Positions 5,803 to 57,117 of a stretch of DNA of 64,000 bases are shown here, piece by piece. Each line of letters begins with the position of its first letter. Position 1 is the first letter of the stretch. The translations under genes were made by a program, and so were the position numbers. This DNA comes from Planctomycetia bacterium (lineage in GTDB: Bacteria; Planctomycetota; Planctomycetia; Gemmatales; Gemmataceae). The stretch is taken from assembly GCA_005772955.1 (NCBI GenBank), contig SXID01000063.1, positions 1 to 64,000 of the forward strand, written 5' to 3'. The notes beneath the pieces were generated by a model that saw only the letters and a program-made list of their open reading frames with translations, was not told where the DNA came from and searched no databases.

Positions 5803-5830
5803 AACTCGCGACTCGCAACTCGTGACTCGC
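5803..5830. repeat. ACTCGCA/GACTCGC heptad repeat
   Basis: Short run of near-identical heptads (ACTCGCG, ACTCGCA, ACTCGTG, ACTCGC) just upstream of the Aas-like gene and before the next gene. The same heptad family is expanded at 36868-37017. Confidence 0.6.
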
Positions 5831-5912
5831 TTCAGGATAGGCTATTGACACTTCGCTTCGCGAGTGGGAACGTGAGCAAGCGTTGCATTTCCCAAATGCT
5901 GGAGACGGTGTC

Positions 5913-6290
5913 ATGCGCGCGGTCGTGATTACACTCGTGGCGGTCGGGTTGCTCGGTACGGTGAACACCGGGCGAGCCGCGGACGACAACAAGGTCCTCA
6001 TCGTCGGAACCTGGGAGATCGTGTACAGCGACGCGAAGGACGTGCCCGTTGGCACGAAGTTGGAGTTCACGAAAGACGGCAAGATGAAACTGACGGTGAA
6101 GGTGGACGGCAAGGAAGTGACCGTGGACGCGGGCGGCTATAAGGTGGACAAGGACGTGCTCACGCTCACCGGCCCCGAGGGCAACAAGAACGATAAAGGC
6201 CGCATCTGTCTGCTGAACAAAACGACGTTCATCATCAACGACGAGATCGAGGACAAGGTGATGGTGACGAAGCGAGTGAAGGGGAAGTAG
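5913..6290 (+). CDS. Small secreted protein, lipocalin-like beta fold suspected
   Basis: 125 residues. I chose the ATG at 5913 because GGAG lies about 9 bases upstream and a signal peptide starts immediately (MRAVVITLVAVGLLGTV, cleavage near GRAADD). The mature part opens with VLIVGTWEIVYSDAKD and continues with alternating strand-like segments (LEFTKDGKMKLTV, YKVDKDVLTLTG). This resembles the small TIGR03067/lipocalin-like proteins that are abundant in planctomycetes, but I could not confirm the family. Function unknown. It is followed closely by the hydrolase gene on the same strand (69-base gap). Confidence 0.75.
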   Translation: MRAVVITLVAVGLLGTVNTGRAADDNKVLIVGTWEIVYSDAKDVPVGTKLEFTKDGKMKLTVKVDGKEVTVDAGGYKVDKDVLTLTGPEGNKNDKGRICLLNKTTFIINDEIEDKVMVTKRVKGK

Positions 6291-6310
6291 TTGAAGGTAA
6301 TCCTCTCGCG

Positions 6311-6326
6311 AAGCCGCAAGCGGCTT
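6311..6326. repeat. Short AAGCCGC palindrome
   Basis: Perfect 7-bp palindrome (AAGCCGC-AA-GCGGCTT) just after the preceding stop codon. Related GCCGCAAGCGGC cores occur at 527-540 and, degenerate, near 26890-26906, so it seems to be a short dispersed unit. Confidence 0.5.
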
Positions 6327-6359
6327 ACCAATCCCATCCTCTCACCCAACTCCCACACC

Positions 6360-41660: not shown

Positions 41661-41751
41661 AACCCGTAACGCACTACGCCCAGGGGGACAGTTACCGCGA
41701 GGCTTTGGGCCTCGCGGTAACTGTCCCCCTGGGCGTAGTGCGTTACGGGTT
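41661..41751. repeat. Perfect 43-bp inverted repeat between convergent genes
   Basis: Arms 41661-41703 (AACCCGTAACGCACTACGCC onward) and 41709-41751 match at all 43 positions with a 5-base loop. The second arm overlaps the stop codon of the minus-strand cytochrome gene by two bases. It may end both transcripts. The perfect match suggests a recent or actively maintained element. Confidence 0.93.
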
Positions 41752-43525
41752 ACTTCGGGGGTTGCAAGTCCGCAAACGCCTTGCGGAATGGGGCGCCCTG
41801 GAACGAGTTGAAGATTTCCATGCGGGCCTTGAGGCGGTTGTCCACCGACTCGACGGTCGGTCCGGGGATGCCGCCGGTGACGCCTTGCTCGTAGTAGAAA
41901 GCCGCGTTCGGCCGGAGCCGGGTGACGATGGTCCCGTCGAGCGACTTGCGCATGTCGGTCAGTGCCTTCGGCTCCACCTTCTTGTCGGTCTGATCCTTCG
42001 GTTGCAACTCGATGTAGAGGGTCTCGACGGCCCAAGTATAGAGTTGCGCGACCTCGGGGTCTCCCACCGGCTTCTTCTCGTCGCTCGCGGCGGCCTTGAC
42101 CATCTCCAATAGTCGCTTGGTTTCCTCAGGCGTGTAGCGGACGCCTGCGAGTTTCTTGCGTGTGTCCTCGCTCCACTTGGCGAGTTTCGCGGTCGCGGTC
42201 TTCACCTTGTCGGCGTCGCCGTAGGTCTTGGTAGTGAAGGCGTCGGCCAGCTCCAGTTCGGCTGCGTCGAGTTCGCCCACCGTGGCCTTGAGGTCGGCGC
42301 CCTTCATCTCACCGGCGTGATCGAGCACGAGCCGGGCCAGCGCGAACGCGGCCGGGCGGTACAGCGGGCGCCCGGGGCGCCCCACGTACCCGCGATCCTG
42401 ACGCTCGCTGGGGTACTTCAGGTTGTGGTGGCACGAGTAGCAGTCAAACGAAGCGAAGTCGAGGCCGTCGTTCTTCTTCTTCGCGTCGTCCGCGAGTTGT
42501 GCCCCGAGGTTCGCCGTCTCTACGAGGGTGGCGAGCGCGGATTCGGCGAACCGACGCGCGACGAACGATTCACCCTTCCGGAAGTGGTAGAGGCCGTACG
42601 CCTTGTCCGTTTTGTTCTTCTCGTCTTTGTCGGCGAGGTTGGTGATGTACGGCATCTCGTGCGCAAAACCCCAGTGCCGCGGCTGCTCGCGTGTATAGGC
42701 GAGCAGGTCGAGCGGCGGCAGCGGCGGGTGCCCAGCCGCATACCAGTCGTGGGTGACAAACCGGCCCTCGTCCTTGTTTCCGATGTGGCACGACGCGCAC
42801 GTGTGGGTCGCGGTCGCCGGGTCGCGGAGGTTGGTCATCCCCCACTCGCTTTTCAGAGTGGTTGGGAAACTTCGCCAATCGACCACCTTCACCGCGTCCG
42901 GGCCGACGTCCTTATCCTTGTCTTCGACGTCCCGACTGCGCCGGTGCGTTTGCTCGTACAGCGTGCCGTGCCCGTGGCACATTTCGCACCCGACGCCCTC
43001 GGTAATCGAAAACGACGTCGCCTTCCACTCGGTGTGCGGAACCCGTTCCAGCGGCACCTTTGTGGTCGCGTGACATGCCAAGCAATTGACATCGGTGGCG
43101 ACCGTGTAGTTCTCGCCCTTGTACTTCCGCAGTTTGTCCTCCATCCGCTGCGCGGTCGGGTTCGGTTTGTCTTTCTTGTTCTTCACCGTGCGGTCGGTGA
43201 GCAGACTGCGGTACGCGGTCGAGTGCAGGTCGTGGGTACTCCAAATGATGTTCTCCGACAGCCGGATGAACTCGTACCCGAGCGTCTCCTTATAGAGGTC
43301 TTTCTGCTTCGGATCAATTTCGGAGTGGCAGTTCTTGCACTCAGACGCGCCGAGCAAGGCCTGCGTCTTCTTCAAGGCGGGGTCCGGGCGGGGGTAGTCG
43401 TCCTTCTTGTCGTCCTTCTGAGCGGCGTCAACCCGCGGCGGCGTGGAGGCGACCACCAACCCCAGCACGAGTCCTCCGAACGCCACTGCCAGCACGCATG
43501 CCCGCCCCGCGTATCCCATCGTCAT
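41750..43525 (-). CDS. Secreted pentaheme c-type cytochrome, paralog 1
   Basis: 591 residues from ATG 43525; a GTG three bases earlier is possible, but ATG has GGAGG at 7 bases and sits in a TGATG stop-start overlap with the upstream paralog, implying translational coupling. Signal peptide VLAVAFGGLVLGLVVAS. Five heme motifs: CKNCH (63), CLACH (148), CEMCH (180), CASCH (243), CYSCH (362). After the fourth comes the AAGHPPLPPL motif shared with the two neighbours. The spacing resembles cytochrome c554-type domains. The C-terminal 220 residues lack heme motifs and are mostly helical. Presumed periplasmic electron carrier; partner inferred to be the neighbouring decaheme and membrane proteins. 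Confidence 0.88.
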   Translation of the reverse strand: MTMGYAGRACVLAVAFGGLVLGLVVASTPPRVDAAQKDDKKDDYPRPDPALKKTQALLGASECKNCHSEIDPKQKDLYKETLGYEFIRLSENIIWSTHDLHSTAYRSLLTDRTVKNKKDKPNPTAQRMEDKLRKYKGENYTVATDVNCLACHATTKVPLERVPHTEWKATSFSITEGVGCEMCHGHGTLYEQTHRRSRDVEDKDKDVGPDAVKVVDWRSFPTTLKSEWGMTNLRDPATATHTCASCHIGNKDEGRFVTHDWYAAGHPPLPPLDLLAYTREQPRHWGFAHEMPYITNLADKDEKNKTDKAYGLYHFRKGESFVARRFAESALATLVETANLGAQLADDAKKKNDGLDFASFDCYSCHHNLKYPSERQDRGYVGRPGRPLYRPAAFALARLVLDHAGEMKGADLKATVGELDAAELELADAFTTKTYGDADKVKTATAKLAKWSEDTRKKLAGVRYTPEETKRLLEMVKAAASDEKKPVGDPEVAQLYTWAVETLYIELQPKDQTDKKVEPKALTDMRKSLDGTIVTRLRPNAAFYYEQGVTGGIPGPTVESVDNRLKARMEIFNSFQGAPFRKAFADLQPPK

Positions 43526-45036
43526 CACTTCCCCTCCGGTAAGCCCGTCCTGGTGCGCAGGAACTCGAAGTTATCGCGAATCAGGTTCAGTTTCTTCTGG
43601 TCGAGGTCGGCCGGGCTGTTGAACACGCCGGCTTTCACGGGCGGGAACCGGAGGCTGTCGCGCACGCGCAGTAGCGGTTCGCTCCAGGTTTTCGCCGCGT
43701 TCGCGCCGCCGTCCGCGTGGTACATCGCCGCGGCGCCGAGGTAGTTCGCGGCCAGCGCATCCCAGTCGTGGTCAGCGAGCTTCTTCCCGTCCTTCGACAG
43801 CGCGTTCGTCGCGAGCCGGTTCGCGATCACTCGCGGCGCGTCGGGACTGACACTACTCGCCCCGCGATCCTCGGCAGCTTGCAGTTCCGCGAGCCACCGG
43901 TCGAGTTCGGCCATGGCGTTCTTCGCCTGTTTCGCGACAGTCGCCGGCGCTGGCGACCGCTTCGACTCCATCAAGGTGCGGAGCTTCTCGACCTCCAGTA
44001 ATTTTGGAGAGCTTAAACCGGGGAACGCGAGACCGCAAGACCTCGCCGCAATATCTACGGCAGTGTTCGACCACACCTCCCAGCCCGGCATCCCGGCGGG
44101 GCGTTTGGTTTCGCACGCGGAGCCACGAATCGCTGGGTCGCCGATCTTCTGGTGACAGGCGTAGCAACTGAAACCACTGAACTCCGGCCACGGGGTATCC
44201 TTGTCATTCTTCTCGGCCCGCGTCGCACGCGCGTGCAACAAGTTGGCCGCGGCGCGTAGCGTGACCGCTTGACCGATGACCCAGAGACGCACTTCAAAAC
44301 TGCGTGCGTCGCCCTTTTCGGTCCAGTGCTTGCGATAGTCCGGTTGGAAGTGGAACCGGGCCGATTCAAAGGCAAGCCGCGGGTGCCCGGCCGCGATAAA
44401 GTCGTGGTTCATGTCGCGCTCGCCGTCCCCGACGTGGCAGGTCGCGCAGTTCAGCGTGCGCGCGACGAGGTTCTTCGTCGGCACGAACCCGAACTCGGTC
44501 CATTTCGATTGGTTGCTGCGGGTTTGCCACGACGGGAGTGTGTGTTCCGCGATCCACTTGTCCGCGGGTCCGTGACACCCGCCGCAGCCGACGCCTTCGG
44601 ACAGGATTTGGTCGCGCGTCTCAGGTTCCTTCGCGCTATCGACCGCGTGACAGGCGAGACATCGCGCGTCCTTGTGCGGTTCTTTAATGCCGAGCGCCTT
44701 GCCCATCTGCACGGAGACGGGGTTGAAGAGGACGCTGTACGCCTTCGCGTGCGGGTCGCTTGTCTCCGCGGGAACGGCTTCTCGCGCCCATGTGGAATGT
44801 TCGCTTCCGACTTTACCAACCGCGCCAGCCCCGTGGCACGCGGAGGCGGAACACGACGTACTCGCGCGGTGTGCGAACGGAGCCTTGCCGACGCCGTAGG
44901 GCGTGTCGGGAACCGCGGCCGGTGCCGCAGCGAGGTCGGGCGATGAAGCCGGGGGTTGGTGGGACCGCGCCGTGTTGAGTACGCCGACGACAACACCAGC
45001 GGCAAGGGCCACCGCGATCAAAGGAACGGCGCGCAC
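43525..45036 (-). CDS. Secreted pentaheme c-type cytochrome, paralog 2
   Basis: 503 residues from GTG 45036 (no ATG in frame nearby). Signal or anchor helix PLIAVALAAGVVVGVL. Motifs: an unusual Cx4CH at CSASACH (62-68), then CLACH (126), CGGCH (151), CATCH (197) and CYACH (291). The MNHDFIAAGHPRLAF stretch follows the fourth. The layout matches paralog 3 almost motif for motif. Cx4CH heme sites are known in some multiheme cytochromes, so five hemes are plausible. Its stop overlaps the start of paralog 1, and it begins 51 bases after the end of paralog 3, so the three form one transcript. Confidence 0.88.
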   Translation of the reverse strand: MRAVPLIAVALAAGVVVGVLNTARSHQPPASSPDLAAAPAAVPDTPYGVGKAPFAHRASTSCSASACHGAGAVGKVGSEHSTWAREAVPAETSDPHAKAYSVLFNPVSVQMGKALGIKEPHKDARCLACHAVDSAKEPETRDQILSEGVGCGGCHGPADKWIAEHTLPSWQTRSNQSKWTEFGFVPTKNLVARTLNCATCHVGDGERDMNHDFIAAGHPRLAFESARFHFQPDYRKHWTEKGDARSFEVRLWVIGQAVTLRAAANLLHARATRAEKNDKDTPWPEFSGFSCYACHQKIGDPAIRGSACETKRPAGMPGWEVWSNTAVDIAARSCGLAFPGLSSPKLLEVEKLRTLMESKRSPAPATVAKQAKNAMAELDRWLAELQAAEDRGASSVSPDAPRVIANRLATNALSKDGKKLADHDWDALAANYLGAAAMYHADGGANAAKTWSEPLLRVRDSLRFPPVKAGVFNSPADLDQKKLNLIRDNFEFLRTRTGLPEGK

Positions 45037-45087
45037 GATAAACTCGCGGTTCGTGTCCGTCGCATCCGTGCGGGGAAATCCGTTTTG

Positions 45088-46587
45088 CTATCGAGGGCGA
45101 AGCAGGAGCGCGTCCAGCGCCCCCATCAGGTTCTTCCACTTCTTCTCAGTGCTCGACCACTTATCGTTTGGGTCCAGCGAGCGGAACGCGGCCACACCGT
45201 CGCGGTACTTCTTCACCGTGTCCGCATCCGGCTTGCCGCGAGCGTATTCCAGCGCCGCGAGGCCAAAGAACAACTGCGACGCGCTATCCAGCTCCGGCAC
45301 GCGAGGCGCTCCCTTCGGGAAGTGCGCCCGCGATGTGTTCTCGACCTCCGCGTCGGACTGCGCCACGAGTTCGCGGCGCAGTTTGGCCAACTCCGCCACG
45401 GTCGTGTTGGCCTTCGCACCGGCGTCCTTCGCCTTTGCGGGTCGCGGTGTCTCCATCGCGAGAACCATACCCGCCAGGGGCGACTTATCGCGCTTCGGCG
45501 TTTCGATCCCCGGAGCGAAGGTCATGGGCCAGATCGTTTGCCACGGTGGGGAGCCGAGTGGCCGACCGGCGAGGTACTTCTCGCTCCTGCGCCAGTCAGC
45601 CCCGACCCCGTCTGGGTCGCCTTCGGGCAGGCGCAGGTTGTGGTGGCACGACGCACAGTTGAACTCGGCGAACTCCGGCCACGGCGTTCGCGGATCGTTC
45701 TCCGACCGCTTCGCGCGGTCTTCGAGCAGTTTGCACGCGGCCTCCGCGTGAGCCACTCGCCCGATGTACCATACCTTCGCTTCGTTCCGCGTAACCCCCT
45801 TGTCGGTGGTTCGCGATCGATCTTTCTCTTGCCAGTGCTGCGGGAGCCGGCGCTGGTACTCCGCGAAGTCGAACGCGAGCCGCGGGTGCCCAGCGGCGAT
45901 CATGTCGTGGTTCATGTCGCGAACCGGCATCCCGTGTTCGGCCGGCGCACCGACGTGGCACCCGGCACACGCGAGCGCCCGTTCCCCGATGTCGTACAGA
46001 GGCCTCATGCCGGTCTTCTCGTACACCTCTTTCCGGTCCCCTTTCCAGGCGGTGTGCGGTTGAATCCACGCACCGGCGTTCCCGTGACATGCCTCGCAAC
46101 TGACACCCTGTTCACGAAGGACGCGGGCGTTCGCGTTGGGGATCAACGCCGGGTGCGCGAGTGCCGGGTTGGTATGGCACGCGAGACAGCGGGCGTCGTC
46201 CGTGGCCTTCGTCCCCGGCGAGTACTTCGCCATGATCTCCGTGGCCTTCACCTTCGACTCGCGCCGCGGGTTGTCGGTGAGCAGGCTGTACGCGGCGGTG
46301 TGCGGGTCGGCTGCGGCCCAGCAACTTCCTGACGACTGCCAGCAGTCGTCTCCACGTTCGCCGTTGAGCACCTTCTCGGCGGGCGCACCGTGGCACGAGG
46401 CAGCGAGGCACCCCGACATTCCGACCGGCTGACGTTTGGCAACGGTGGCCTCGTCCTCCTTGCGCGGTTGGTGGGCGGGAACATCCACGACGACAGGCCG
46501 TTCAAACTGGCTCGCGGCCAACGCGACCGCCAGACCGAGGATCACGCCGGCCAGTGCGAGAAGAACTGTACGCGCGCTGAGGTTCAT
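45088..46587 (-). CDS. Secreted pentaheme c-type cytochrome, paralog 3 (first in the operon)
   Basis: 499 residues, ATG start. N-terminal helix VLLALAGVILGLAVALAA is a signal or anchor. Motifs: Cx4CH at CLAASCH (60-66), CLACH (134), CEACH (164), CAGCH (207), CASCH (311, followed by another His). The MNHDMIAAGHPRLAFDF stretch follows the fourth. Two more cysteines (82, 89) near the first motif could form a disulfide. It is the promoter-proximal gene of the three paralogs. The divergent plus-strand electron-transfer genes start about 690 bases away across a decayed zone. Confidence 0.88.
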   Translation of the reverse strand: MNLSARTVLLALAGVILGLAVALAASQFERPVVVDVPAHQPRKEDEATVAKRQPVGMSGCLAASCHGAPAEKVLNGERGDDCWQSSGSCWAAADPHTAAYSLLTDNPRRESKVKATEIMAKYSPGTKATDDARCLACHTNPALAHPALIPNANARVLREQGVSCEACHGNAGAWIQPHTAWKGDRKEVYEKTGMRPLYDIGERALACAGCHVGAPAEHGMPVRDMNHDMIAAGHPRLAFDFAEYQRRLPQHWQEKDRSRTTDKGVTRNEAKVWYIGRVAHAEAACKLLEDRAKRSENDPRTPWPEFAEFNCASCHHNLRLPEGDPDGVGADWRRSEKYLAGRPLGSPPWQTIWPMTFAPGIETPKRDKSPLAGMVLAMETPRPAKAKDAGAKANTTVAELAKLRRELVAQSDAEVENTSRAHFPKGAPRVPELDSASQLFFGLAALEYARGKPDADTVKKYRDGVAAFRSLDPNDKWSSTEKKWKNLMGALDALLLRPR

Positions 46588-46692
46588 GGTCAGTTGGGAA
46601 TATTGGTTGGTGGTCGGGAAACCGCAAAGCCAGACCGCGCCGGTGGGCGTTTCACCATGTTCGTTGTTTTCCTCTCGGACGGCAAGCGCCGT

Positions 46693-47068
46693 TCAAGAGG
46701 AATGGGCCGCACAGAGTCGCGCTCCTGGCACGACCATGTGCGGAGGAGGCGGGACCGCCGCGTAGAGTTCCGCCAGGAGCAGTGCGACCTCCAGAAACTC
46801 GTTCCCGTCCCGCCCAGCATAGACGAACGGGTTCTTCTCGTTGGGCTTCGCGGTCTCCAACAACGCCTCAACCTTCAGCGCGGCCTCCGGCAGGTCGAAC
46901 CTGCCAGCCCACGCGCCCCTGTCGCCCGTCTTTCGACGCACCGCACCGCTCGGTCATCTCGTAAACGAACGTCCGGTGGACTCCGCGTTCGTCGGCCCCG
47001 GCCGCGAGTTGCGCGGGCGCGAGTTCTTCGCTCTTCGGACCATTTATCGCCGCGACGGCAGGGCGCAC
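46693..47068 (-). pseudogene. Frameshifted gene remnant
   Basis: Two minus-strand frames join into a more protein-like whole: the upstream frame reads VHRTFVYEMTERCGASKDGR (from about 47068), and the downstream frame (46693 to about 46940) reads AGRFDLPEAALKVEALLETA and NPFVYAGRDGNEFLEVALLL. The switch would be near 46925, in a GGGCGACAGGGGCGCG run. I infer one decayed gene. Family not recognised; no start or ribosome site is convincing. Confidence 0.4.
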
Positions 47069-47082
47069 GGAAGGGAGCCACG

Positions 47083-47172
47083 GTGCCGGAAGGCGGTGTC
47101 GCCAACCTCGCGAAGACGCTGCCGGGGTGCCAGATCGTGTGGGACGGCGGCACGATCAAGCCGAAGAAGTGA
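47083..47172 (+). pseudogene. 3' fragment of a leucine-rich-repeat-type protein gene
   Basis: The last 29 codons before TGA 47170-47172 read EGGVANLAKTLPGCQIVWDG followed by GTIKPKK. This closely resembles the C-terminal ends of planctomycete repeat proteins (leucine-rich or similar), which finish with a LxxALPxCxIxWDGG-type tail. Nothing upstream in the frame belongs to such a protein, so it is a truncated end left by deletion or rearrangement. Family assignment is from memory of the tail pattern. Confidence 0.45.
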
Positions 47173-47276
47173 CGACCAATCGGGTTCCTGATGTGGGGCG
47201 TTGACTGCCTCGTGTCAGTGCGTTACCATCTCGTCTTTAGACACACCCCCGTCCTGATGGACAACCGGAGTTGCGA

Positions 47277-48158
47277 GTGCTTCTCGGAAAGACGAAAACG
47301 GTTCAGTGGCGAATCACCATCATTGTGTTCGCCACGGTCGGCATCACCCTCGCTGGGGCGGTTGGCGCCCGGCTTGGCGCTCTGGTCGGGCTGTGGAACT
47401 GGCCGCCGGAACCGAGCAGCGGGTTCGGCGTACTGTGCGGCGTGGTCGGCGGGGCCATCGTGTTCTTCGAGATGGCCATCATCCTCCGCAAGCGGTGGCG
47501 CAGGTGGCGACTGGGCCGCACCCGCACCTGGATGCGGCTCCACATCTGGATCGGCCTGGTGTGCATGCCCGTCATCCTCGTTCACGCAGGCTTCGGGTTT
47601 GGTGGCCCGCTCGCCACCGTCACCCTGATCCTGTTCCTGCTCGTCATGTTCAGCGGCGTGTGGGGGCTGATCATGCAGCAGTGGATCCCGCAGAAAATCC
47701 TCTCGGAAATCCCCGGCGAGACGATCGCTTCCCAGATTGACCGGCTCGGCGAGTACCACGCGGACGAAGCCAGGCGGGTCATCATCGCGCTGACCACCGT
47801 GCCGCCGGAGGCTGAAGCCGCCGCGCCCGTCATCAGCGGCCCGCTCGCGAAGGAATTGGAAACGTTCCGCGACGACGTACTCCTGCCGTACCTCCAGGAA
47901 GGTCGGCACTCACGATCCCCGCTCACAGCCCCTGCGGAAGCCGAACGCCATTTCGCCCGGCTCCGCGAGGCTGTTCCGCTCGAGGCACGTGACGACCTCG
48001 ACCGGCTTCAGGAGTTGGCCAACCTGCGCCGACGCTGGGATGCCCAGGCCCAACTGTTCTTTTGGCTGCACAACTGGCAACTCGTCCACCTCCCGCTCTC
48101 CGTCGCGATGACCACGCTCATGATTCTCCACGCGGTCCGTGCGATGAAGTACTGGTGA
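47277..48158 (+). CDS. Four-helix membrane protein, probable diheme cytochrome b
   Basis: 293 residues from GTG 47277, selected because CGGAG (47266-47270) lies 6 bases upstream; TTG 47271 is the alternative. Helices: about 12-38 (ITIIVFATVGITLAGAVGA), 50-70 (FGVLCGVVGGAIVFFEMAII), 87-107 (RLHIWIGLVCMPVILVHAGF), 110-135 (ATVTLILFLLVMFSGVWGLI) and a final one near 262-290 (WLHNWQLVHLPLSVAMTTLM). Histidines in the third helix (LHIW, VHAG) and last helix (LHNW, VHLP, LHAV) are spaced like heme b ligands in cytochrome b561/b-type quinone enzymes. A soluble stretch of about 125 residues lies before the last helix. Infer quinone- or heme-mediated electron transfer across the membrane. Leads the plus-strand electron-transfer operon. 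Confidence 0.72.
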   Translation: MLLGKTKTVQWRITIIVFATVGITLAGAVGARLGALVGLWNWPPEPSSGFGVLCGVVGGAIVFFEMAIILRKRWRRWRLGRTRTWMRLHIWIGLVCMPVILVHAGFGFGGPLATVTLILFLLVMFSGVWGLIMQQWIPQKILSEIPGETIASQIDRLGEYHADEARRVIIALTTVPPEAEAAAPVISGPLAKELETFRDDVLLPYLQEGRHSRSPLTAPAEAERHFARLREAVPLEARDDLDRLQELANLRRRWDAQAQLFFWLHNWQLVHLPLSVAMTTLMILHAVRAMKYW

Positions 48159-48219
48159 TTCCGGTTCGTCCCTGTTGAATTTTCTGCTTTGAATGTTGGA
48201 TTTATTGCTTGGGTGCAAC

Positions 48220-49890
48220 ATGCCTCGTTCACCAAGTCGCGACCTGTCAGACCGGTTCATCGGGAAACGCGGGTACTTCCGCTGGCCAGACCCGCTGCGC
48301 CGCGGGAAGATCGCGCTCAGTTGGGTCGCGCTGCTCTCAGCCGCTGCGTGGGGTGTGGTGGACGTGGCCGAGCCAGTGCAGCGGGTCCAGTACTCGCACT
48401 CCCACGGCCGACTCGCCAATGTCCACGCCGCGTTCGACAACAACTGTGAGGCCTGTCACAAGGCGCACGGGCTGGACGAGTTCAACCCGGTGTCCGTTTT
48501 CAACGTCCGCGACCGGTGGCACGACATGACGTGCGAGAAGTGCCACGGCGGCCCGGCCCACCACGCCTCCGCGAACGATGAGGCGCTGAAGTTCCACAAC
48601 CGCTGTTCCAACTGCCACCACGACCACAACGGGCGGCTCGGTTCCCTCGTCCGCCTCGCGGACAAGGATTGCAACCAGTGCCATGAGAACCTGGGCAAGT
48701 ACTTCGTTCCGCCTGACCCCAAGAAGCCGCGACCCGGCGAGTTGTACGAGCCGTACCAGAACAAGATCACCAACTTCGTGAAGGACCACCCGGAGTTCCG
48801 CTCGTTGGGGAAGAAAGACGAGAAGGGCAATTTCGAACCCGTGAACAACCCGCGAACGCTCAAGTTCAGTCACGCGGTCCACATGAGTCCGGGTCAGGCG
48901 TACACGGACGGGGGCGGCGAAGCGATGACCGTCGATAAGCTCCGCAAGTTCGGTGGGGACGCGGCCGTCGCGCGGTACGCCGCGGGCGCCGCGGGCGACG
49001 CGAAGATTCAACTCGCTTGCGCCTCATGCCACGCGCTCGACGCCGGTGCGGGCACCGCGGACTTCGCCAAGATCAAGGACACGCTCGCGAAGGGCGACCC
49101 GACACACGCGTTATTGCCGCCGCGAGCCGAGGGCGCGTACTTCCTCCCGGTCAACTTCGAGGTCCACTGCCGCTCGTGCCACCCGGCTCAGGCGAAGGAG
49201 GGCGTGAGCAAGGTGGGCGACGCGGAGTACCACGTGCCGCCGTTCGACGTGTCTCACCGCAAGCAGCCGGCCGACCTGGTCCCCGAACTCCGGGCAGGCT
49301 ACCTGAGGGGATTGAGCGCTCTCAAACACCCGGCTCTGAAGAGGCCACTGGAGCTGGGGGGCAAACTCGAACTGCAACCGAACGACCTGACGCAGCGGAC
49401 GCTCAGTCAGGAGGTCGATCGCCTCGCTACCGACGCCGAGGCGATCATGTTCAGCGGCGGAATCTGCGCGAAGTGTCACAGTGTCGTGCCGGGCGAAGGC
49501 AAGGCGAAGCCGCGGGTCGCGGTCGTCCCAGACCGGACGGTCTGGTTCAAGCACGCGAAATTCAACCACGCCTCGCACCGTGGCGCGACGTGCGCGACGT
49601 GCCACCCGGGCACCGGGGCCGCGTTCGTCTCTCCGACGGAAGCGGACAAACCGGAACCGGTGCAGATCGTGGGCGTGAAGACTTGCCAGGCGTGCCACTC
49701 GCCGCCGGGCACCGACGTGAACTTCGAGGTTGACGGGAAGAAGATCGTCGGGGGCGGCGCGCGTCACGCTTGCACCGACTGCCACCGCTACCACAACGGC
49801 GACTACTCGCTCCAGGGTCGCGGCGCCGCGGCGCGCGATCCCGGTCGACCGCTCAACCTGATCGAGTGGCTTCAGGGCAACACGAAGTAG
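48220..49890 (+). CDS. Membrane-anchored decaheme c-type cytochrome
   Basis: 556 residues from ATG 48220 (ATG 48193 would add nine). A basic N-terminal tail and one helix (IALSWVALLSAAAWGVVDV, about 31-49) anchor it. Ten CxxCH motifs: 76, 105, 129, 151, 267, 317, 416, 458, 489 and 518. The first four are packed in 80 residues and the last four in 107, so two heme wires are linked by looser middle sequence. Extra histidines (HSH near 60-62, HDH near 134-136) may be axial ligands. It follows the b-type protein by 61 bases and precedes NuoEF. Inferred role: periplasmic electron relay between the membrane protein and the pentaheme cytochromes. Confidence 0.9.
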   Translation: MPRSPSRDLSDRFIGKRGYFRWPDPLRRGKIALSWVALLSAAAWGVVDVAEPVQRVQYSHSHGRLANVHAAFDNNCEACHKAHGLDEFNPVSVFNVRDRWHDMTCEKCHGGPAHHASANDEALKFHNRCSNCHHDHNGRLGSLVRLADKDCNQCHENLGKYFVPPDPKKPRPGELYEPYQNKITNFVKDHPEFRSLGKKDEKGNFEPVNNPRTLKFSHAVHMSPGQAYTDGGGEAMTVDKLRKFGGDAAVARYAAGAAGDAKIQLACASCHALDAGAGTADFAKIKDTLAKGDPTHALLPPRAEGAYFLPVNFEVHCRSCHPAQAKEGVSKVGDAEYHVPPFDVSHRKQPADLVPELRAGYLRGLSALKHPALKRPLELGGKLELQPNDLTQRTLSQEVDRLATDAEAIMFSGGICAKCHSVVPGEGKAKPRVAVVPDRTVWFKHAKFNHASHRGATCATCHPGTGAAFVSPTEADKPEPVQIVGVKTCQACHSPPGTDVNFEVDGKKIVGGGARHACTDCHRYHNGDYSLQGRGAAARDPGRPLNLIEWLQGNTK

Positions 49891-49902
49891 CGACTTGTTC
49901 GA

Positions 49903-49986
49903 GGCGAGCGGGGGGCGTAAGCCCCCTGATGCGACCTCCTCCAACGACGAGCGACAAGAATCAGGGGGCTTATGCCCCCGCTCGCC
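49903..49986. repeat. Inverted repeat made of two 28-bp dispersed units
   Basis: Arms 49903-49930 (GGCGAGCGGGGGGCGTAAGC then CCCCTGAT) and 49960-49986 pair with two differences (one base and one indel). The first arm is identical in reverse to 6404-6431. It separates the decaheme cytochrome and NuoEF genes and ends 18 bases before the NuoEF start. Confidence 0.9.
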
Positions 49987-50004
49987 ACGTACGAAGGTCC
50001 TTCG

Positions 50005-52041
50005 ATGATCGTTCAGCGGCTCCGCGACATCCAAAACCGGTTCGGCTTCCTCCCCGACAAGGAGTTGAAGGAACTCGCGCACGAAATCGACGTGCCGATG
50101 TACCGGCTGGAAGAAGTCAGCAGTTTCTTCCCGGCTTTCAAGCTCGAACGCACTAGCCCGCCCGATGTCGAGATGCGCGTGTGTCGCGACATGACGTGCC
50201 ACCTGCGTGGCTCCGCGGCGCTGCTCAACGAGAAGACCGGGCTGCCGGTGCTCGCCGCCGAACTGTCGGAGCGCACGGGAAAGAAGGTGTGCGTCGAGGG
50301 CGTTTCGTGTCTGGGACGTTGTGACCGCGCGCCGGCCGTGTGGGTCGAGAAGCGGCCCATGCCCGAACACGTTCACGCGTGGGTGTACGCCAACCGTTCC
50401 GGCGCGGTTCTCGAAGAAGTTCTCACCGCGCTGGCCGAGGACCGAGATCCGCCCGCCCCGAACCCGGATGCCGAGTACCCCCCGCATACCAACGCGAACC
50501 GCGGGTACTCGCCACCCTCATCCGACCCCAGCAGTAAACACCCGGCGCTGCCCGCGGCCGGTTGGTCGCTTGACGTGTACGGGCGCCAGCGGTGGCCCCG
50601 CGACTACCGCGCCGTGAAGCGGTTCACGGACTACATCGCGATGTTGATCCGGCCCATAGTGCCCCCGCCCCGCGAGATGGGCGGTAAAGACCTCGAGACG
50701 TACGTTCAGCGGTTCCACCCGCTGCTCTGGGAACTGAAGGCCGCGAACCTCCTGGGCATGGGTGGGGCGGGCGCGCCCGCGTACCAGAAGTGGCTCGACG
50801 TGTGGCGCGAACAGGGGCCGGAAAAGTATGTCGTCTGCAACGGCGACGAGAGTGAACCGGGCACGTTCAAGGACCGTGAGATTCTGCTCCGCATGCCGCA
50901 CCTTGTGGTGGAAGGTGTGATCCTCGCGGGTCTGATGACCGGCGGTTCCGCGGGCTACATCTTCGTCCGCCACGAGTATCACGAGCAGATTCACGCACTC
51001 CGCGAGGAGATCCACCGCGCCGAAGAAATGGGCGCGTGTGGCGAGAACATCTTCGGGTCTGGTCGCAACTTCCCTGTTGAGGTGTTTGAAAGCCCAGGGG
51101 GGTACATCTGCGGCGAGCAGTCTGCGCTCATCGAGGCGATGGAGGACCGCCGTGGTCAGCCGCGTAACCGGCCACCCGAACTCACCACCAACGGACTGCG
51201 TGACCGACCGACGGTTGTGAACAACGTGGAGACCCTCGCGTGGGCCCCTAGCATCGTGCTTTTTGGTGGTGACAAGTACGAGATGGGCGGGTGGCGTCTC
51301 CAGGACGATCCGAAGATCAAGTTCGGTGGGCGCCGGCTGTTCTCCGTCAGTGGCGACGTGGTTCGACCCGGCGTGTACGAGGTCGCCGTCGGACTGACGC
51401 TCGGCGAGTTGTTCACCAACGAGAAGTACTGTGGTGGGATCAACGGCACGCTGCGCGCGGTTGCGGCTTCGGGTCCGTCCGGCGGGCTGCTGCCCGCGAA
51501 GATTCCCGTCGATCCGAAGTTCGACGAGAAGAAGCGGGCCGACGCGGTCGCCAAGATCCGCGAGCGCAGCGCGCAGGATGCCGACTTCATGGCGTGGTTC
51601 CTCAACGCCCATCTGCCGCTGGGAGCGAAGGAACTGGACCTGTTGAAGATCCCGCTCGACCTGAACTTCTTTCGGCACATGAATGGCGCGTTGCGGTTCC
51701 CGGTCGAGCCGATGCTCGGGGCCGCGATCACCGTGTACGCTGGCGACGTGGACCTGCTCGACCAGGCGGTGAACTACACCGAGTTCTACCGGAACGAGTC
51801 GTGTGGGAAGTGTGTCCCGTGCCGCCTCGGATCGCAGAAGTTGGTACAGATTGGACAAGACCTGATCAAGCGTCGCGACGCCGGCACACCGATCGCCGGG
51901 ACCGAAGCGGACCGCGTGAAGTCCGACGTGAAAGAGATCACCAAGACGCTGCAGTTGACGTCGATCTGCGGGCTGGGATACGTCGCCCCGATCCCGCTCG
52001 CGACGATCATCGCGTACTTCATGGATTCGACGCAGAAGTAG
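50005..52041 (+). CDS. NuoE-NuoF fusion, NADH:acceptor oxidoreductase flavoprotein
   Basis: 678 residues from ATG 50005 (GAAGG 8 bases upstream; the longer frame enters the repeat). Residues 1-145 are the NuoE thioredoxin-like 2Fe-2S domain with Cys60, Cys65, Cys102 and Cys106 (CRDMTC, SCLGRC). A proline-rich linker spans 145-190. Residues 190-678 are NuoF: GMGGAGAPAYQKW (251-263, NADH/FMN glycine loop), VVCNGDESEPGTFKDRE (277-292), GGYICGEQSALIEAMEDRRG, FSVSGDVVRPGVYEV, ESCGKCVPCRLG (about 597-608) and the last cluster ligand in LTSICGLG (about 653). All FMN, NADH and 4Fe-4S sites look intact. Expected to oxidise NADH, passing electrons to the NuoG-like protein encoded next. Confidence 0.93.
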   Translation: MIVQRLRDIQNRFGFLPDKELKELAHEIDVPMYRLEEVSSFFPAFKLERTSPPDVEMRVCRDMTCHLRGSAALLNEKTGLPVLAAELSERTGKKVCVEGVSCLGRCDRAPAVWVEKRPMPEHVHAWVYANRSGAVLEEVLTALAEDRDPPAPNPDAEYPPHTNANRGYSPPSSDPSSKHPALPAAGWSLDVYGRQRWPRDYRAVKRFTDYIAMLIRPIVPPPREMGGKDLETYVQRFHPLLWELKAANLLGMGGAGAPAYQKWLDVWREQGPEKYVVCNGDESEPGTFKDREILLRMPHLVVEGVILAGLMTGGSAGYIFVRHEYHEQIHALREEIHRAEEMGACGENIFGSGRNFPVEVFESPGGYICGEQSALIEAMEDRRGQPRNRPPELTTNGLRDRPTVVNNVETLAWAPSIVLFGGDKYEMGGWRLQDDPKIKFGGRRLFSVSGDVVRPGVYEVAVGLTLGELFTNEKYCGGINGTLRAVAASGPSGGLLPAKIPVDPKFDEKKRADAVAKIRERSAQDADFMAWFLNAHLPLGAKELDLLKIPLDLNFFRHMNGALRFPVEPMLGAAITVYAGDVDLLDQAVNYTEFYRNESCGKCVPCRLGSQKLVQIGQDLIKRRDAGTPIAGTEADRVKSDVKEITKTLQLTSICGLGYVAPIPLATIIAYFMDSTQK

Positions 52042-52055
52042 ATGGGTGGGTGAGC

Positions 52056-52182
52056 AGAACCTCTCCCCCCAACCCCCTCCCCTAAGAAGGGAGGGGGAGA
52101 AGGACAACAAACAATCGAGCTACGAACTGCCCCTCTTGCTCCCCCTCCCTTCTTAGGGGAGGGGGTTTGGGGGAGAGGTTCT
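52056..52182. repeat. CCCCTAAGAAGGGAGGGG palindromic repeat between NuoEF and the NuoG-like gene
   Basis: Arms 52056-52099 and 52139-52182 (AGAACCTCTCCCCCC... against ...GGGGGAGAGGTTCT) match at 43 of 44 positions around a 39-base spacer. Same family as 8349-8454 and 58067-58187. It starts 15 bases after the NuoEF stop and could attenuate transcription or protect the upstream mRNA end. Confidence 0.92.
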
Positions 52183-52204
52183 TTGCCGCAGAGAGTCCGC
52201 ACCC

Positions 52205-54961
52205 ATGGCCGAATCTGCCGATCCCGAAATCTCCCTCGGTCGCGAAGAAGAGTCTCTCTTCGCCCGCGACGACAACGACGTACTCGTGCGCCGCGAAAAG
52301 GAGACACGCGACCGGTTCCAGGACATCGTCACGATTGTCATCGACGGGTACGCGGTGGAAGTTCCGCGCGCGGTGCCCAAGTCCGACTCGCAAGGCAACC
52401 TGATTCGCGACCAGGACGGCCAACTCATCCCACGCACCACGACCATTTATGACGCCGCGGCTGAACTCGTCGCACAAGGCATCTGGTCCGACGAGGAACT
52501 GAAGACCCGCATCCCGGTGTTGTGCCACCAGCGGCACGTGACTCCGGTCGCGGTGTGCCGCATGTGTTCGGTCCACATCAGCAGCATGAAACGCGGCAAG
52601 TTGACGGCCGGACGCAAACTGGTTCCCGCGTGCCAGCACCGCGTCGAAACGAACATGGTCGTGACCACGCGTGCCGGGATGCCGGGGTACAACCCGGACA
52701 AGAAGGACTCGGCCGACACGAAGGTGATCGATCGGGCCTCAGCCGACGTGAACGAGTCGGTGAAGATGCTCGCCGAGTTCTTGATCGCTGACCATTTCCA
52801 TGAGCCACTAACCGAGACCAAGCGGTACGAGAACGAACTCAGCACGGTGGCACGGTCGCTCAAAGTGCTCGAACCACGCGTCAGTCTCCGCCGCCCGGCG
52901 GACCTGCCCAGCAAGAACACCGCGCAGGAGGCGATCCCCAAGTCCCGGCGCATCGAACTTCCCCTGGTTCCAACGCTCAGCGCGACCGAACGGAACGAAG
53001 AACGCGCCGATCTCCGTAACGCCTGGGATGAGTGGAACGCGCAGGTGGACGAGGGCTATCCGTACTCGTCGCGCACCGTGGTCGTCGATCACGACCGCTG
53101 CATCCTGTGCGACCGGTGTGTGCGTGCGTGTTCGGAGGTGAAGCCGTTCAAGGTGATTGGGCACACTGGCAAGGGGTACGGCACGCGCATCAGTTTCGAC
53201 CTCGACTCGATCATGCGCGAATCGACCTGCGTGCAGTGCGGCGAGTGCATGAACAGTTGCCCGACGGGGGCGCTTTCCTTGCGCCGCCGCGTGCGACCGC
53301 GTGCGTGGGCGGACTCGCCCGAACAGATCCCTGTGAATCCGAACACCACGTTCCCGAAGTCGTCGGGGTTCCTCACGGCCGATGAGATGCAGAACGTCTG
53401 GCTCTTGTACGAAAGCCCGACGCGCGGGCCGCGGGTCGTCTTCCCGTTCCGCTCGATCCCGTACTCGTACCTGAAGTGGAACGAGGGCGCGGTGCGCAAG
53501 TGGGAGATTGCGCCGGGCGAGCGCAAGGTGCTTTGCGACGAGGGCGAGTACGGCAGCACCGCGTTCCTGCTCCAGGGCACAGGCACCTTCGAGATCTACG
53601 CTCGCCCCGTGGTGGCCGCGGCCAAACCGGGCTTCTTCGGCGCGCTGTTTGGGAACACCGCCAAGCCAAAGAAGCCGGACCGGAACAACCCTGGCAACCT
53701 GCTCCGCATCGCGTCCGGCGACGAACTGGTGCTTGGCGAGATGACGTGCCTGACGCAGCGCCCGCGGACCGCGAGCGTGATCGGCGCGGCCGAACCTGAC
53801 AATCCCGAACTCATCTTGAGCGATGACGAAAACGGCTGGCCGATTGCCACCCGAAACACCAAGAAGCGCGGCCCAGTCGTGGTGTACGAAGTGACCCGGA
53901 ACATGCTCGACATGATGCAGCGGGCCGCGTCGGCACGCGAAGACTTGCAGGAGATGTACACGTTCCGCGCTCTCCAGACGAGCGTCTCCGGTGGTCGCCT
54001 GTTCGCCTCGCTCGATCAGATGGACCGCGAGCGGGCGATCACGTTCCTGCTCGCCGAGAAGGTGGAAGGCAAGGGCGCGGAGTTCCGCCGCATCGCGGCC
54101 GGTGAGACGATCGTCGCGGAGGGCGACACAGCCGCGGCGTTCTACATCATTCGGCTCGGAACAGTTCGCGTCTTCACCACGGCTGGCGGTGGCGAGCAAG
54201 TCCTGCGGCTCCTCTCCGCGGGCGATTACTTCGGCGAAGCGGCGTTGCTCTCCGACCGGCCCGGCGTGCGGACCGCCACGGTCGCCGCGCTCGACCCGGT
54301 GGAACTGGTTCGCGTGCCGGGTCCGGTGTTCCGCTTGATGTGCGAGAAGTTCCCGGCACTGCGTGTCGGTCTGGAAGGCGCGGCGCGCCCTGCCGTGCCC
54401 GGCGTGAAGGGCACCCCGCCACCCGCGGTGCTTCGCGACTACGTCAGGCAGGGCTTGTATCAGGGTCAGAAGTTGCTGGTGCTGGACTTGAAGAGTTGCA
54501 CGCGCTGCGACGAATGTACGCGAGCATGTGCGGACTCACACGACGGCAACGCGCGTCTGTTGCGTGAGGGCCTGCGGTTCGGCGACTTCCTGGTCGCGAC
54601 TTCGTGCCGGTCGTGTCACAAACCGTACTGCATGGAGGGTTGCCCGGTGGACGCGATCCACCGTGAAGGGAACCACCTCGAAGTGGTGATCGAGAACCAC
54701 TGTATCGGGTGCGGTCTGTGCGAGCGGAACTGCCCGTATGGTGCGATTCACATGGTTCCGCGAGGCACGGCGAACCCGGCCGCAGCGGAAATCCCAGGCG
54801 GCAACCCGAACGTAACCGCGGCGCGTCGTGCGGTGAACTGCGACCTGTGCAACGGCGACGAGCCGTACTGCGTGCAGGCATGTCCGCACGAGGCCGCGTA
54901 CCGCAAGACCGGCCCGGCGCTGCTCGACGAGATCCTCCACCGCCTCGAAACGCACGAGTGA
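52205..54961 (+). CDS. NuoG-like iron-sulfur protein with two cNMP-binding-like domains and C-terminal ferredoxin unit
   Basis: 918 residues, ATG start. Residues about 40-200 are the NuoG-type 2Fe-2S domain (IPVLCHQRHVTPVAVCRMCS, later PACQH). The next NuoG cluster site keeps only ADHFHEP; its cysteines are missing. Residues about 290-365 carry two 4Fe-4S sites (CILCDRCVRACSEV, CVQCGECMNSCPTGAL). Then, in place of the molybdopterin domain, come two CRP-like beta-roll domains: about 412-530 (GEYGSTAFLLQGTGTFEIYA, weaker) and 620-725 (GETIVAEGDTAAAFYIIRLG, GDYFGEAALLSDRPGVRTAT with a phosphate-cassette-like FGEAALL and Arg). Residues 755-910 hold four NrfC-type clusters (CTRCDECTRAC, CRSCHKPYCMEGCP, CIGCGLCERNCPYGAI, CDLCNGDEPYCVQACPHEA). 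No signal peptide. Infer an electron hub accepting from NuoEF and possibly gated by a ligand. Confidence 0.87.
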   Translation: MAESADPEISLGREEESLFARDDNDVLVRREKETRDRFQDIVTIVIDGYAVEVPRAVPKSDSQGNLIRDQDGQLIPRTTTIYDAAAELVAQGIWSDEELKTRIPVLCHQRHVTPVAVCRMCSVHISSMKRGKLTAGRKLVPACQHRVETNMVVTTRAGMPGYNPDKKDSADTKVIDRASADVNESVKMLAEFLIADHFHEPLTETKRYENELSTVARSLKVLEPRVSLRRPADLPSKNTAQEAIPKSRRIELPLVPTLSATERNEERADLRNAWDEWNAQVDEGYPYSSRTVVVDHDRCILCDRCVRACSEVKPFKVIGHTGKGYGTRISFDLDSIMRESTCVQCGECMNSCPTGALSLRRRVRPRAWADSPEQIPVNPNTTFPKSSGFLTADEMQNVWLLYESPTRGPRVVFPFRSIPYSYLKWNEGAVRKWEIAPGERKVLCDEGEYGSTAFLLQGTGTFEIYARPVVAAAKPGFFGALFGNTAKPKKPDRNNPGNLLRIASGDELVLGEMTCLTQRPRTASVIGAAEPDNPELILSDDENGWPIATRNTKKRGPVVVYEVTRNMLDMMQRAASAREDLQEMYTFRALQTSVSGGRLFASLDQMDRERAITFLLAEKVEGKGAEFRRIAAGETIVAEGDTAAAFYIIRLGTVRVFTTAGGGEQVLRLLSAGDYFGEAALLSDRPGVRTATVAALDPVELVRVPGPVFRLMCEKFPALRVGLEGAARPAVPGVKGTPPPAVLRDYVRQGLYQGQKLLVLDLKSCTRCDECTRACADSHDGNARLLREGLRFGDFLVATSCRSCHKPYCMEGCPVDAIHREGNHLEVVIENHCIGCGLCERNCPYGAIHMVPRGTANPAAAEIPGGNPNVTAARRAVNCDLCNGDEPYCVQACPHEAAYRKTGPALLDEILHRLETHE

Positions 54962-55179
54962 GGAACGCGAGGGCGTTGAACGAAGATTTGTAACGAACAA
55001 CCAATTTCCGTTGACAAGTGAGCGGGCGACTTCTTCCTCAAGACGTTCGCGTTGCAGCCATTCGTCCCGCGCGAACGTCCCGCGCGCGAAGTGACCGCCG
55101 GCTTGGTTCACCCTGTTTTCATCTCCCGGAGCAAGGTAGAGTAGCTCGTACCGCCTCCCGCCCTCGCGTGCCGGCTTTT

Positions 55180-57117
55180 ATGAGCGACGAAACCCAACAC
55201 TCGCCCCGCCCCGCGCCGCCGACTTCCGACCCGGCTCTCACGGCAGCGGAGAACGCACGCCCCAGCGCGGAGTCCGTGCCGTACGCCGACACGCTTGCCC
55301 AAACGCCCGAACAGGTGCAGCGCACCGCGGCGTTGGCATCGGGCAGGGTGACTGTCCCGGGGTACGAGATCATCAGCGAACTCGGGCGCGGCGGGATGGG
55401 CGTCGTCTACAAAGCGCGACACCTGAAACTCAATCGCGTCGTCGCGCTCAAGATGGTCCTCGCGGGCGGACACGCCGACGCACGCGACATCACGCGGTTC
55501 GTCGCGGAAGCCGAAGCCGTCGCCGCCATCCGACACCCGAACGTCATTCAAGTCTTCGACAGCGGCGAAGCACAGGGCCGCCCGTTCATGGCTATGGAGT
55601 GTTTGGAAGGCGGCAGTCTCGCCCAGCGAATTCGCGCGTCCGGGAAGATGCCACCACGCGCCGCGGCCGAACTCGTCGCCAAGATCGCCTCAGGCGTGCA
55701 GGCCGCACACGATCGCGGGATCGTTCACCGCGACCTCAAGCCGCACAACGTGCTGCTCGACGCGCCGAGCAACGCCGCGGAACCGTGGGGTGAACCGAAG
55801 GTGATGGACTTCGGGCTGGCGAAGCGCGACGGCGCGGAACTCACGCAAACCGGCGCCGTGATGGGCACCCCGGCGTACATGTCGCCCGAACAGGCGAAGG
55901 GCGAAACGAAGAACATCGGTCCCGTGTCCGACGTGTACGCGCTCGGTGTGATCCTCTACGAGTGCCTCACGGGGTCCGTGCCGTTCACGGGCAGCGACGC
56001 GTGGTCGGTGATTCGGCAGGTGATCAGCTACGAACCCGAGCCGGCCTCGCGCCGCTCGCCCGGTGTGCCGCGTGAACTCGATTTGATCTGCCGCAAGTGT
56101 CTCGCGAAGGAGCCCATCGAGCGCTACGCGAGCGCCGCGGCACTCGCCAACGACTTGAAACGCTATCTCAACGGCGAATCGCTGTTGGGTCCGCGTACAG
56201 GCGTCTGGTACGAGGCCCGTCGCGTCGCGAAACGGTGGGGGCGCGGGGCTGCGGTGATGGTCGTATTGTCCGTGGTGATGGTAGTTATGTGGTTGCTGCC
56301 GTCACCGCTGGGGGAGAAGGAAGGTCCGGGTTCCTTGATTCCACTCACGCCGAAGTCGAAGGAAGACCCGGTTTCCGCCGTGCTCCGCCAGGAGCTCACC
56401 CAGCAGGTGGCCACGCTCCGCGAATCGAACCCCACGCCCGACCGCAAGTCGCCGCACCCACTCACTGCGATCCCCGAACTGCCACCAACGGACTACTCGA
56501 AGTTCAAGGTATCCAAGGACGAACGCATCATGGACATGCGCGGGTGGAAGCCGCTCGACCCGAACAACCCGGCCGACGAGTGCGCCATCGTGTACTTCAC
56601 GCGGCGCGAGATGGCGAAGGTCGCGGCGACCGACGAGTTGCGGATTGAGACGGGCACGACCGGGCGCGACGTGATCAACCGGGCCGAGAGTCCGAACGCG
56701 GAAAAGGCCCGCGCGTTCACTACGAACAAGCCCGGTTTCGTGGACTCGCAAGCGGTGAAGGTGCGACAGCTTGTGTTCGACGTGGGCGACATTCCGTTGA
56801 AGCAGGAGTTCACGCTCCGGTACACCAGCACCTATTGGAACTCGCTCCAGACGGCCGACGAGCAGTGGTTCAGCGTGCTCAATTACGAAGGGTCGGTGAA
56901 GACATCAATGCTGATGCTGTTCCCGGCTGACCGTCCGTTCCGCGAGTACAAGTTGCTTCACGCCCCGCCCCGCCAGGACGACCCGACGAAGCGCGAAGGC
57001 CCGCAACCGTACACCGGGCCGCTGATCACGTTCGAGGCCGAGGACAAGAGCTGGGTGTACTGGGAGATTCCCAACCCGAAGGCGAACCACGCCTACCGTA
57101 TTGACTGGACGTGGTGA
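55180..57117 (+). CDS. Membrane-anchored Ser/Thr protein kinase (Pkn type)
   Basis: 645 residues; ATG 55180 follows a region rich in stops in other frames, and the longer upstream extension is basic and not protein-like. Residues 1-60 are a disordered Pro/Ala-rich tail. The kinase domain spans about 61-330: GRGGMGVVYKAR (69-80), Lys91 in VVALKM, HRDLKPHN (183-190), DFGLAK (210-215), GTPAYMSPEQ (229-238) and SDVYALGVILYE. All catalytic residues are present. A membrane helix (about 356-373, AAVMVVLSVVMVVMWLL) leads to an extracytoplasmic part of about 270 residues with a FTLRYTSTYWNSLQTADEQW segment; no known sensor family recognised. Planctomycetes have large numbers of such kinases. Target unknown; proximity to the electron-transfer genes is suggestive only. 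Confidence 0.92.
   Translation: MSDETQHSPRPAPPTSDPALTAAENARPSAESVPYADTLAQTPEQVQRTAALASGRVTVPGYEIISELGRGGMGVVYKARHLKLNRVVALKMVLAGGHADARDITRFVAEAEAVAAIRHPNVIQVFDSGEAQGRPFMAMECLEGGSLAQRIRASGKMPPRAAAELVAKIASGVQAAHDRGIVHRDLKPHNVLLDAPSNAAEPWGEPKVMDFGLAKRDGAELTQTGAVMGTPAYMSPEQAKGETKNIGPVSDVYALGVILYECLTGSVPFTGSDAWSVIRQVISYEPEPASRRSPGVPRELDLICRKCLAKEPIERYASAAALANDLKRYLNGESLLGPRTGVWYEARRVAKRWGRGAAVMVVLSVVMVVMWLLPSPLGEKEGPGSLIPLTPKSKEDPVSAVLRQELTQQVATLRESNPTPDRKSPHPLTAIPELPPTDYSKFKVSKDERIMDMRGWKPLDPNNPADECAIVYFTRREMAKVAATDELRIETGTTGRDVINRAESPNAEKARAFTTNKPGFVDSQAVKVRQLVFDVGDIPLKQEFTLRYTSTYWNSLQTADEQWFSVLNYEGSVKTSMLMLFPADRPFREYKLLHAPPRQDDPTKREGPQPYTGPLITFEAEDKSWVYWEIPNPKANHAYRIDWTW

Follow-up and report, generated by a model that had tools for sequence, protein, structure and literature searches.

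We analysed a 64,000-nucleotide stretch of DNA (the window; positions 1 to 64,000 of contig SXID01000063.1, assembly GCA_005772955.1) from Planctomycetia bacterium, a member of the Gemmataceae, and focused on an island of seven electron-transfer genes within it. The island encodes three pentaheme cytochromes c (C5a, C5b and C5c) and, divergently, a b-type membrane protein (MEMb), a decaheme cytochrome c (C10), a NuoE-NuoF fusion flavoprotein (EF) and a composite iron-sulfur (Fe-S) subunit (G_cNMP). The balance of the results tips slightly towards the island being a stand-alone, NAD(P)H-oxidising conduit that would carry electrons outward, apart from complex I. The evidence consists of the conservation of the genes, the cofactor motifs, the histidine pattern of a diheme cytochrome b, the modularity of EF with the NuoG-like part of G_cNMP, and the co-occurrence of further proteins. 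A preliminary description of this DNA had listed the seven genes as contiguous, and all were present as a minus-strand trio (41750-46587) and a divergent group of four (47271-54961). It had also proposed a stand-alone NADH dehydrogenase wired through b and c hemes to a periplasmic acceptor. The conserved unit, separate from complex I, held up, whereas NADH is no more than a possible substrate, given the replaced adenine-binding residues in EF, and a bypass of quinone and a periplasmic end of the path stay proposals; the description had overlooked the cyclic-nucleotide-binding domains and the modular input formed by EF and the NuoG-like part.

We scanned named genomes with a G_cNMP alignment, obtained 304 relatives and kept the best 80, which came from planctomycetes and a few Verrucomicrobiota. 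Since the query was G_cNMP only, the other genes provide an independent test of conservation. The set leans to EF-type relatives, from which the alignment was built, and many of its loci are short contigs. EF was found in 75 of the 80 loci (directly upstream in 66), adjacent MEMb-C10 in 51 and C5 proteins in 54. Where both 10-kb flanks were complete (30 loci), 29 had EF, and MEMb, C10 and C5 each occurred at 27. G_cNMP was found in all 19 genus members searched, with 63-100% identity. These results bore out the expected conservation of the neighbourhood, which is kept across Gemmataceae and Pirellulaceae-type planctomycetes; the few Verrucomicrobiota carry EF and G_cNMP only. Carriers among culturable planctomycetes include Gemmata sp. 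IIL30, Zavarzinella formosa, and Rhodopirellula and Rubripirellula species.

The strongest evidence for a plug-in input module came from loci that lack EF. G_cNMP had four Fe-S motifs at 29/29 loci with EF and two at 16/16 loci without it. At the EF-less loci the protein was short and retained the C-terminal clusters only, the NuoG-like part being gone, and 15/16 of these loci kept both MEMb and C10. This scoring used the Fe-S motif count (four or two) and left out one 4.2-kb contig; a regular expression for the dicluster of the NuoG-like N-terminus (NuoG-N) gave three false positives (L039, L042 and L113). The absence of EF tracked the absence of the NuoG-like part, suggesting that EF and NuoG-N form one input module, which would feed a conduit of b and c hemes.

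The membrane component of this conduit was described earlier as a b-type protein, and the results supported this. H91, H105, H273 and H287 of MEMb, arranged in two H-x13-H pairs, were invariant in 43/43 homologues, so that the protein has the two axial histidine pairs and two membrane helices of a diheme cytochrome b. Its AlphaFold model was helical with a predicted local distance difference test score (pLDDT) of 91.4, and the helices spanned residues 84-106 and 237-294. By our reading of the positive-inside rule, the N-terminus and the RKRWRRWRLGRTR loop would lie inside with one heme per face, and the helical insert at about 145-260 would be cytoplasmic. A Foldseek search with MEMb returned nothing at E<=0.001. 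Fold comparison gave Z scores of 8.1 for b561 (4o6y) and 6.7 for DUOX1, both within the chance range for helical bundles.

C10 has 10 CXXCH motifs, as do 46/52 family members (the window's C10 included), a cytochrome c7 match in Pfam and a transmembrane segment at residues 40-59; conservation indicates that its true start is probably the ATG at 48220 (MPRSPSRDLSDR...). It had no match among solved structures. Pfam assigned cytochrome c554-type domains to all three minus-strand proteins. Their description as three paralogous pentahemes held for the paralogy and the shared strand, but only C5a has five CXXCH motifs, C5b and C5c having four plus one CX4CH. Among 113 C5 proteins of relatives, 77 had four CXXCH and one longer motif, and 34 had five CXXCH. 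C5c matched the solved cytochrome c554 (1bvb) weakly (E=0.0026).

MEMb and C10 are central to the best-surviving alternative, which we consider rather doubtful. MEMb might be quinone-reactive like CbcL/MtrH or FdnI-type anchors, and the island would then be an NAD(P)H:quinone oxidoreductase or a quinol-linked cytochrome reductase whose C10 and pentahemes are fed from the quinone pool. CbcL has this layout of a diheme b part with a multiheme c part (PMC6295460), and the retention of MEMb-C10 at EF-less loci points to an electron source other than EF there. However, a DmsB-like domain and a diaphorase arm accompany MEMb-C10 at nearly all EF loci on long contigs, which suggests direct input.

EF comprises the Pfam domains 2Fe-2S_thioredx, Complex1_51K and NADH_4Fe-4S in a single open reading frame (ORF). 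The NuoE [2Fe-2S] site, the flavin mononucleotide (FMN) site and the N3 ligands were all found, as in a NuoEF-type diaphorase. The earlier claim of a NuoE and NuoF with all cofactor residues thus held for the FMN and Fe-S ligands, but the two are one fused gene and the NADH adenine pocket is altered. Numbering the pocket residues as in Aquifex NuoF, we found K76, E95, S96 and E97 invariant in 75/75 island EFs, and Y180 and E184 in 78/78. R66 was replaced by M in 71, F71 was retained in 3/75, and F79 was replaced as well. E185 was Q in 74/78, K202 was R in 58, and residue 205 was F in 3/78. Among the adenine-pocket residues F71, K76, E185, K202 and F/Y205, K76 alone was kept throughout (75/75). 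In NuoF, the adenine ring stacks against F71 and Tyr/Phe205, with E185 and K76 as the residues that hold the ribose (PMC11677225; also PMC7171172). The altered pocket is itself conserved, suggesting that it is under selection. NADH is thus not assured as the substrate of EF, and NADPH is possible.

These replacements could also mean that nicotinamide use has been lost and that the EF flavin is fed by another partner, such as ferredoxin or flavodoxin. This explanation would account for the change of R66, F71, F79 and F205, and of E185 to Q, in nearly every island EF, with E95, S96, E97, K76, Y180 and E184 retained, and F71 and residue 205 are the ones that hold the adenine ring (PMC11677225). 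Against it, K76, Y180 and E184 remain, and three family members (L040, L054 and L248) have a near-canonical pocket. By our reading of the alignment, Acetobacterium woodii HydB carries S at 185 and R at both 202 and 205, and this diaphorase of a bifurcating hydrogenase uses NAD+; changes at these positions alone therefore do not prove NADPH use either. Finally, the formate dehydrogenase variant FdsB E259Q, which we equated with NuoF E185Q by residue spacing, gained use of NADP+ and still used NAD+ (PMC10671435). Taken together, we regard the loss of nicotinamide use as unlikely.

G_cNMP had been described as NuoG-like, which proved correct for its N-terminal Fe-S part; the remainder consists of cyclic-nucleotide-binding domains and a DmsB-like ferredoxin. 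The C-terminal ferredoxin domain has 16 invariant cysteines, sufficient for four clusters, and Pfam detected no hydrogenase domain in the protein. Several cyclic-nucleotide-binding stretches were found in its relatives. The putative first domain of G_cNMP has a GEM..PRTAS cassette at about residues 504-528, and the phosphate cassette GE...R was kept in both domains, with exceptions in the second cassette at L099 (Glu) and L049 (Arg). With the domain and the cassette Glu and Arg in place, cyclic-nucleotide binding is predicted at the sequence level. The N5 motif HxxxCxxC was absent upstream of the dicluster in all EF-type members. N1b and N4 are adjacent in complex I, and by analogy the Fe-S chain through G_cNMP may still be continuous despite this loss.

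Two further proteins accompany the island: a giant multiheme cytochrome with 9-10 hemes and LVIVD repeats, and a strand-rich protein. They were found in 33 and 34, respectively, of the 37 genomes with G_cNMP, and in 0/22 without it. Outside the genus the counts were 15/18 and 16/18 against 0/22 (Fisher test, kinship ignored, 2e-8 and 2e-9). Strand-rich counts came from a single-protein search; hits of a barrel hidden Markov model below about 400 bits were ignored, the contaminant being an unrelated repeat protein beside the island at L095. In the genome of the window itself, the giant cytochrome lies on contig C225 and the strand-rich protein on C223. Both lie near the island at L202, L228 and L247, and the giant cytochrome is the next gene past C5a, at the island edge, in two genus members (L094, 16401-19901; L096, 16542-19901). 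MEMb, C10, G_cNMP and the giant cytochrome occurred together at 9/16 EF-less loci. The strand-rich protein had no Pfam match and is a suspected outer-membrane barrel. The co-occurrence suggests an electron path past the periplasm. Beside the barrel-like gene, several genomes encode a large protein whose repeats are of a calcium-binding type (L182, 13714-16158; L259, 3083-5569).

We propose that NAD(P)H would reduce the FMN of EF, from which electrons would pass through N3 to the [2Fe-2S] and two [4Fe-4S] clusters in the NuoG-like part of G_cNMP and on to its DmsB-like four-cluster domain. This domain would dock on MEMb from the cytoplasmic side, and the two b hemes of MEMb would relay the electrons through the membrane to the anchored C10 and then to the periplasmic pentahemes. 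In many genomes the route would continue to the surface, in the manner of extracellular electron transfer, by way of the giant LVIVD cytochrome and the strand-rich putative outer-membrane protein. Perhaps cAMP or cGMP would switch the flow through the two cyclic-nucleotide-binding domains in G_cNMP. In this scheme we infer the assembly of a complex, the direction and substrate, the bypass of quinone, the gating and the outer-membrane step. As no pump is present, the conduit would probably serve to rid the cell of surplus reductant, with acceptors in the periplasm or outside the cell. Only tentatively do we extend the scheme to its fullest form, a quinone-independent route from NADPH (or NADH) through heme b and multihemes to the surface, gated by cAMP or cGMP at the Fe-S subunit and widespread in planctomycetes.

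Several points weigh against the proposed conduit. Because the adenine-binding residues of EF have changed, NAD(P)H itself is only a presumed donor, and G_cNMP lacks the N5 cluster. The fold matches of MEMb are weak and non-specific, and we claim no relative for it. The counts for the giant cytochrome and the strand-rich protein are not corrected for phylogeny; the model of the latter was poor (pLDDT 44.7), and its family had no match among solved structures (PDB).

NAD(P)H has a lower potential than typical c hemes, and electrons moving to the positive side need no pump, which favours outward flow. Inward flow, from surface and periplasmic cytochromes through MEMb and G_cNMP to make NAD(P)H, is slightly less probable still than the loss of nicotinamide use in EF. 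Known conduits can run in both directions (PMC6295460), and a cyclic-nucleotide switch would fit assimilatory use. Yet the island encodes no pump, and established bioenergetics makes the reduction of NAD(P)+ from heme c uphill and the movement of electrons to the negative side costlier.

The genome contains three NuoF-type proteins, on C25, on C137 and in the window (EF). On C25, NuoF and NuoE are neighbours in a complex I cluster that also encodes a NuoG, whose N5 motif (HPLDCPVC) is intact, and the C137 NuoF adjoins an ORF that, by our reading, resembles the end of a formate-dehydrogenase/molybdopterin-type subunit. NuoH is encoded on C25 and C98, and antiporter-type subunits on C19, C25, C96, C98 and C145. 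As reported before, the pump is not nearby: the island contig carries no complex I membrane subunit, and neither NuoH nor L, M or N is encoded with the module. In a FastTree phylogeny of 99 sequences, the island EFs grouped with 0.999 support, apart from canonical complex I NuoF, in a clade that also contains two non-island NuoF-like proteins. These results agree with the earlier view that EF and G_cNMP do not belong to the normal complex I, whose own NuoE, NuoF and NuoG are in the C25 cluster, and with separate Nuo genes elsewhere we rejected the island as a complex I. It is most improbable that the ordinary complex I takes up EF and G_cNMP as additional input subunits: they are homologous to NuoE, NuoF and the NuoG N-terminus, but the C25 cluster already has all three, G_cNMP has neither N5 nor the remainder of NuoG, and island EFs form a separate clade linked to MEMb-C10 instead of nuo genes. 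Separately, the C25 NuoF of this genome (L002/L256) reads EPCTYNNR where the other NuoF proteins of the set read EPGTFKDR, and has Asn at the D103 position near the nicotinamide.

The features of the island are listed in Table 1. C5a and C5b overlap by 4 bases, and the divergent gap is the presumed promoter region. A Ser/Thr protein kinase gene (window 55018-57117) begins 56 bases past G_cNMP on the same strand, and kinase-like ORFs adjoin the island in some genus members too.

Table 1. Genes of the island and features of G_cNMP, in window positions
Feature	Position	Strand	Description
C5a	41750..43528	-	Exported pentaheme cytochrome c, cytochrome c554-like; 5 CXXCH; hydrophobic N-terminal stretch 6-31
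C5b	43525..45036	-	Exported pentaheme cytochrome c, paralogue of C5a/C5c; 4 CXXCH + 1 CX4CH; hydrophobic N-terminus 1-25
C5c	45088..46587	-	Exported pentaheme cytochrome c; 4 CXXCH + 1 CX4CH
Divergent intergenic region	46588..47270	.	683-bp gap between the C5cba and MEMb-C10-EF-G runs
MEMb	47271..48158	+	Diheme cytochrome b-type membrane protein
C10	48193..49890	+	Decaheme cytochrome c; basic N-terminal segment, one transmembrane anchor
EF	49972..52041	+	NuoE-NuoF fusion flavoprotein, 689 amino acids
G_cNMP	52205..54961	+	Composite Fe-S subunit, 918 amino acids
G_cNMP residues 107-143	52523..52633	+	NuoG/HydA-like [2Fe-2S] (N1b) motif, 4 Cys
G_cNMP residues 299-352	53099..53260	+	2x[4Fe-4S] dicluster like NuoG/HydA/HoxU
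G_cNMP residues ~409-530	53429..53794	+	Putative first cyclic-nucleotide-binding-like domain, from motif and relatives; no separate Pfam match
G_cNMP residues 628-715	54086..54349	+	Cyclic-nucleotide-binding domain, FGEAALL...RTAT cassette; Pfam PF00027, E=3.1e-22
G_cNMP residues 765-894	54497..54886	+	DmsB/HycB-like ferredoxin

We compared the island with known systems. It shares with the peripheral arm of complex I the NuoE [2Fe-2S] cluster, the FMN site, N3, N1b and then a pair of [4Fe-4S] clusters. It differs in that NuoE and NuoF are fused, the adenine pocket is altered, N5, the NuoG body and the membrane pump are absent, and cyclic-nucleotide-binding domains and a DmsB-like ferredoxin are added. 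The N-terminus of G_cNMP matches HydA and HoxU of HydABC/HoxEFU, and the best solved-structure match of EF was A. woodii HydB, but the island has no hydrogenase. Bifurcating HydB carries a C-terminal ferredoxin extension, whereas EF stops after its NADH_4Fe-4S (N3) domain, and a diaphorase of the bifurcating-hydrogenase type was rejected on both grounds. With DmsB/HycB four-cluster ferredoxins, G_cNMP shares the 16 cysteines; here, however, the domain follows a NuoG-like head and a pair of cyclic-nucleotide-binding domains in one fused protein, and no molybdoenzyme gene adjoins.

On the heme side, CbcL/MtrH/MtoC also link a diheme b part and a multiheme c part to periplasmic cytochromes, a comparison of layout only (PMC6295460); in the island these parts are split into MEMb and C10, which come with their own NAD(P)H-type diaphorase and polyferredoxin. 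As in porin-cytochrome conduits (MtrAB, Pcc and the Verrucomicrobia porin-multiheme cytochrome, PMC5615132), multihemes are co-inherited with a strand-rich putative outer-membrane protein, but this one is a putative barrel lacking a Pfam match, and the giant cytochrome has LVIVD repeats. In agreement with the preliminary description, no named complex of such composition was found in the literature searched, a scope outside which most subscription papers fell. By this search, the parts are known, and what appears new is their combination into a putative nicotinamide dehydrogenase that pumps nothing and feeds a multiheme conduit. The same genome also has a second set of genes (L055, G000:C180, 2502-6741), all on one strand: a 15-CXXCH cytochrome (2502-4184), a b-type membrane protein (4147-5352) that has a GYF domain and a weak resemblance to MEMb, and a FAD/NAD-type oxidoreductase-like protein (5356-6741). 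This set may be a parallel nicotinamide-to-multiheme conduit.

The inner-membrane entries to extracellular electron transfer described so far, CymA, CbcL and ImcH, start at the quinone pool (PMC6295460). A conduit equipped with its own nicotinamide diaphorase would open another way into this process, and one that is testable because it is found in culturable planctomycetes. Cyclic-nucleotide-binding domains within an electron-carrying subunit would amount to direct second-messenger control of respiration.

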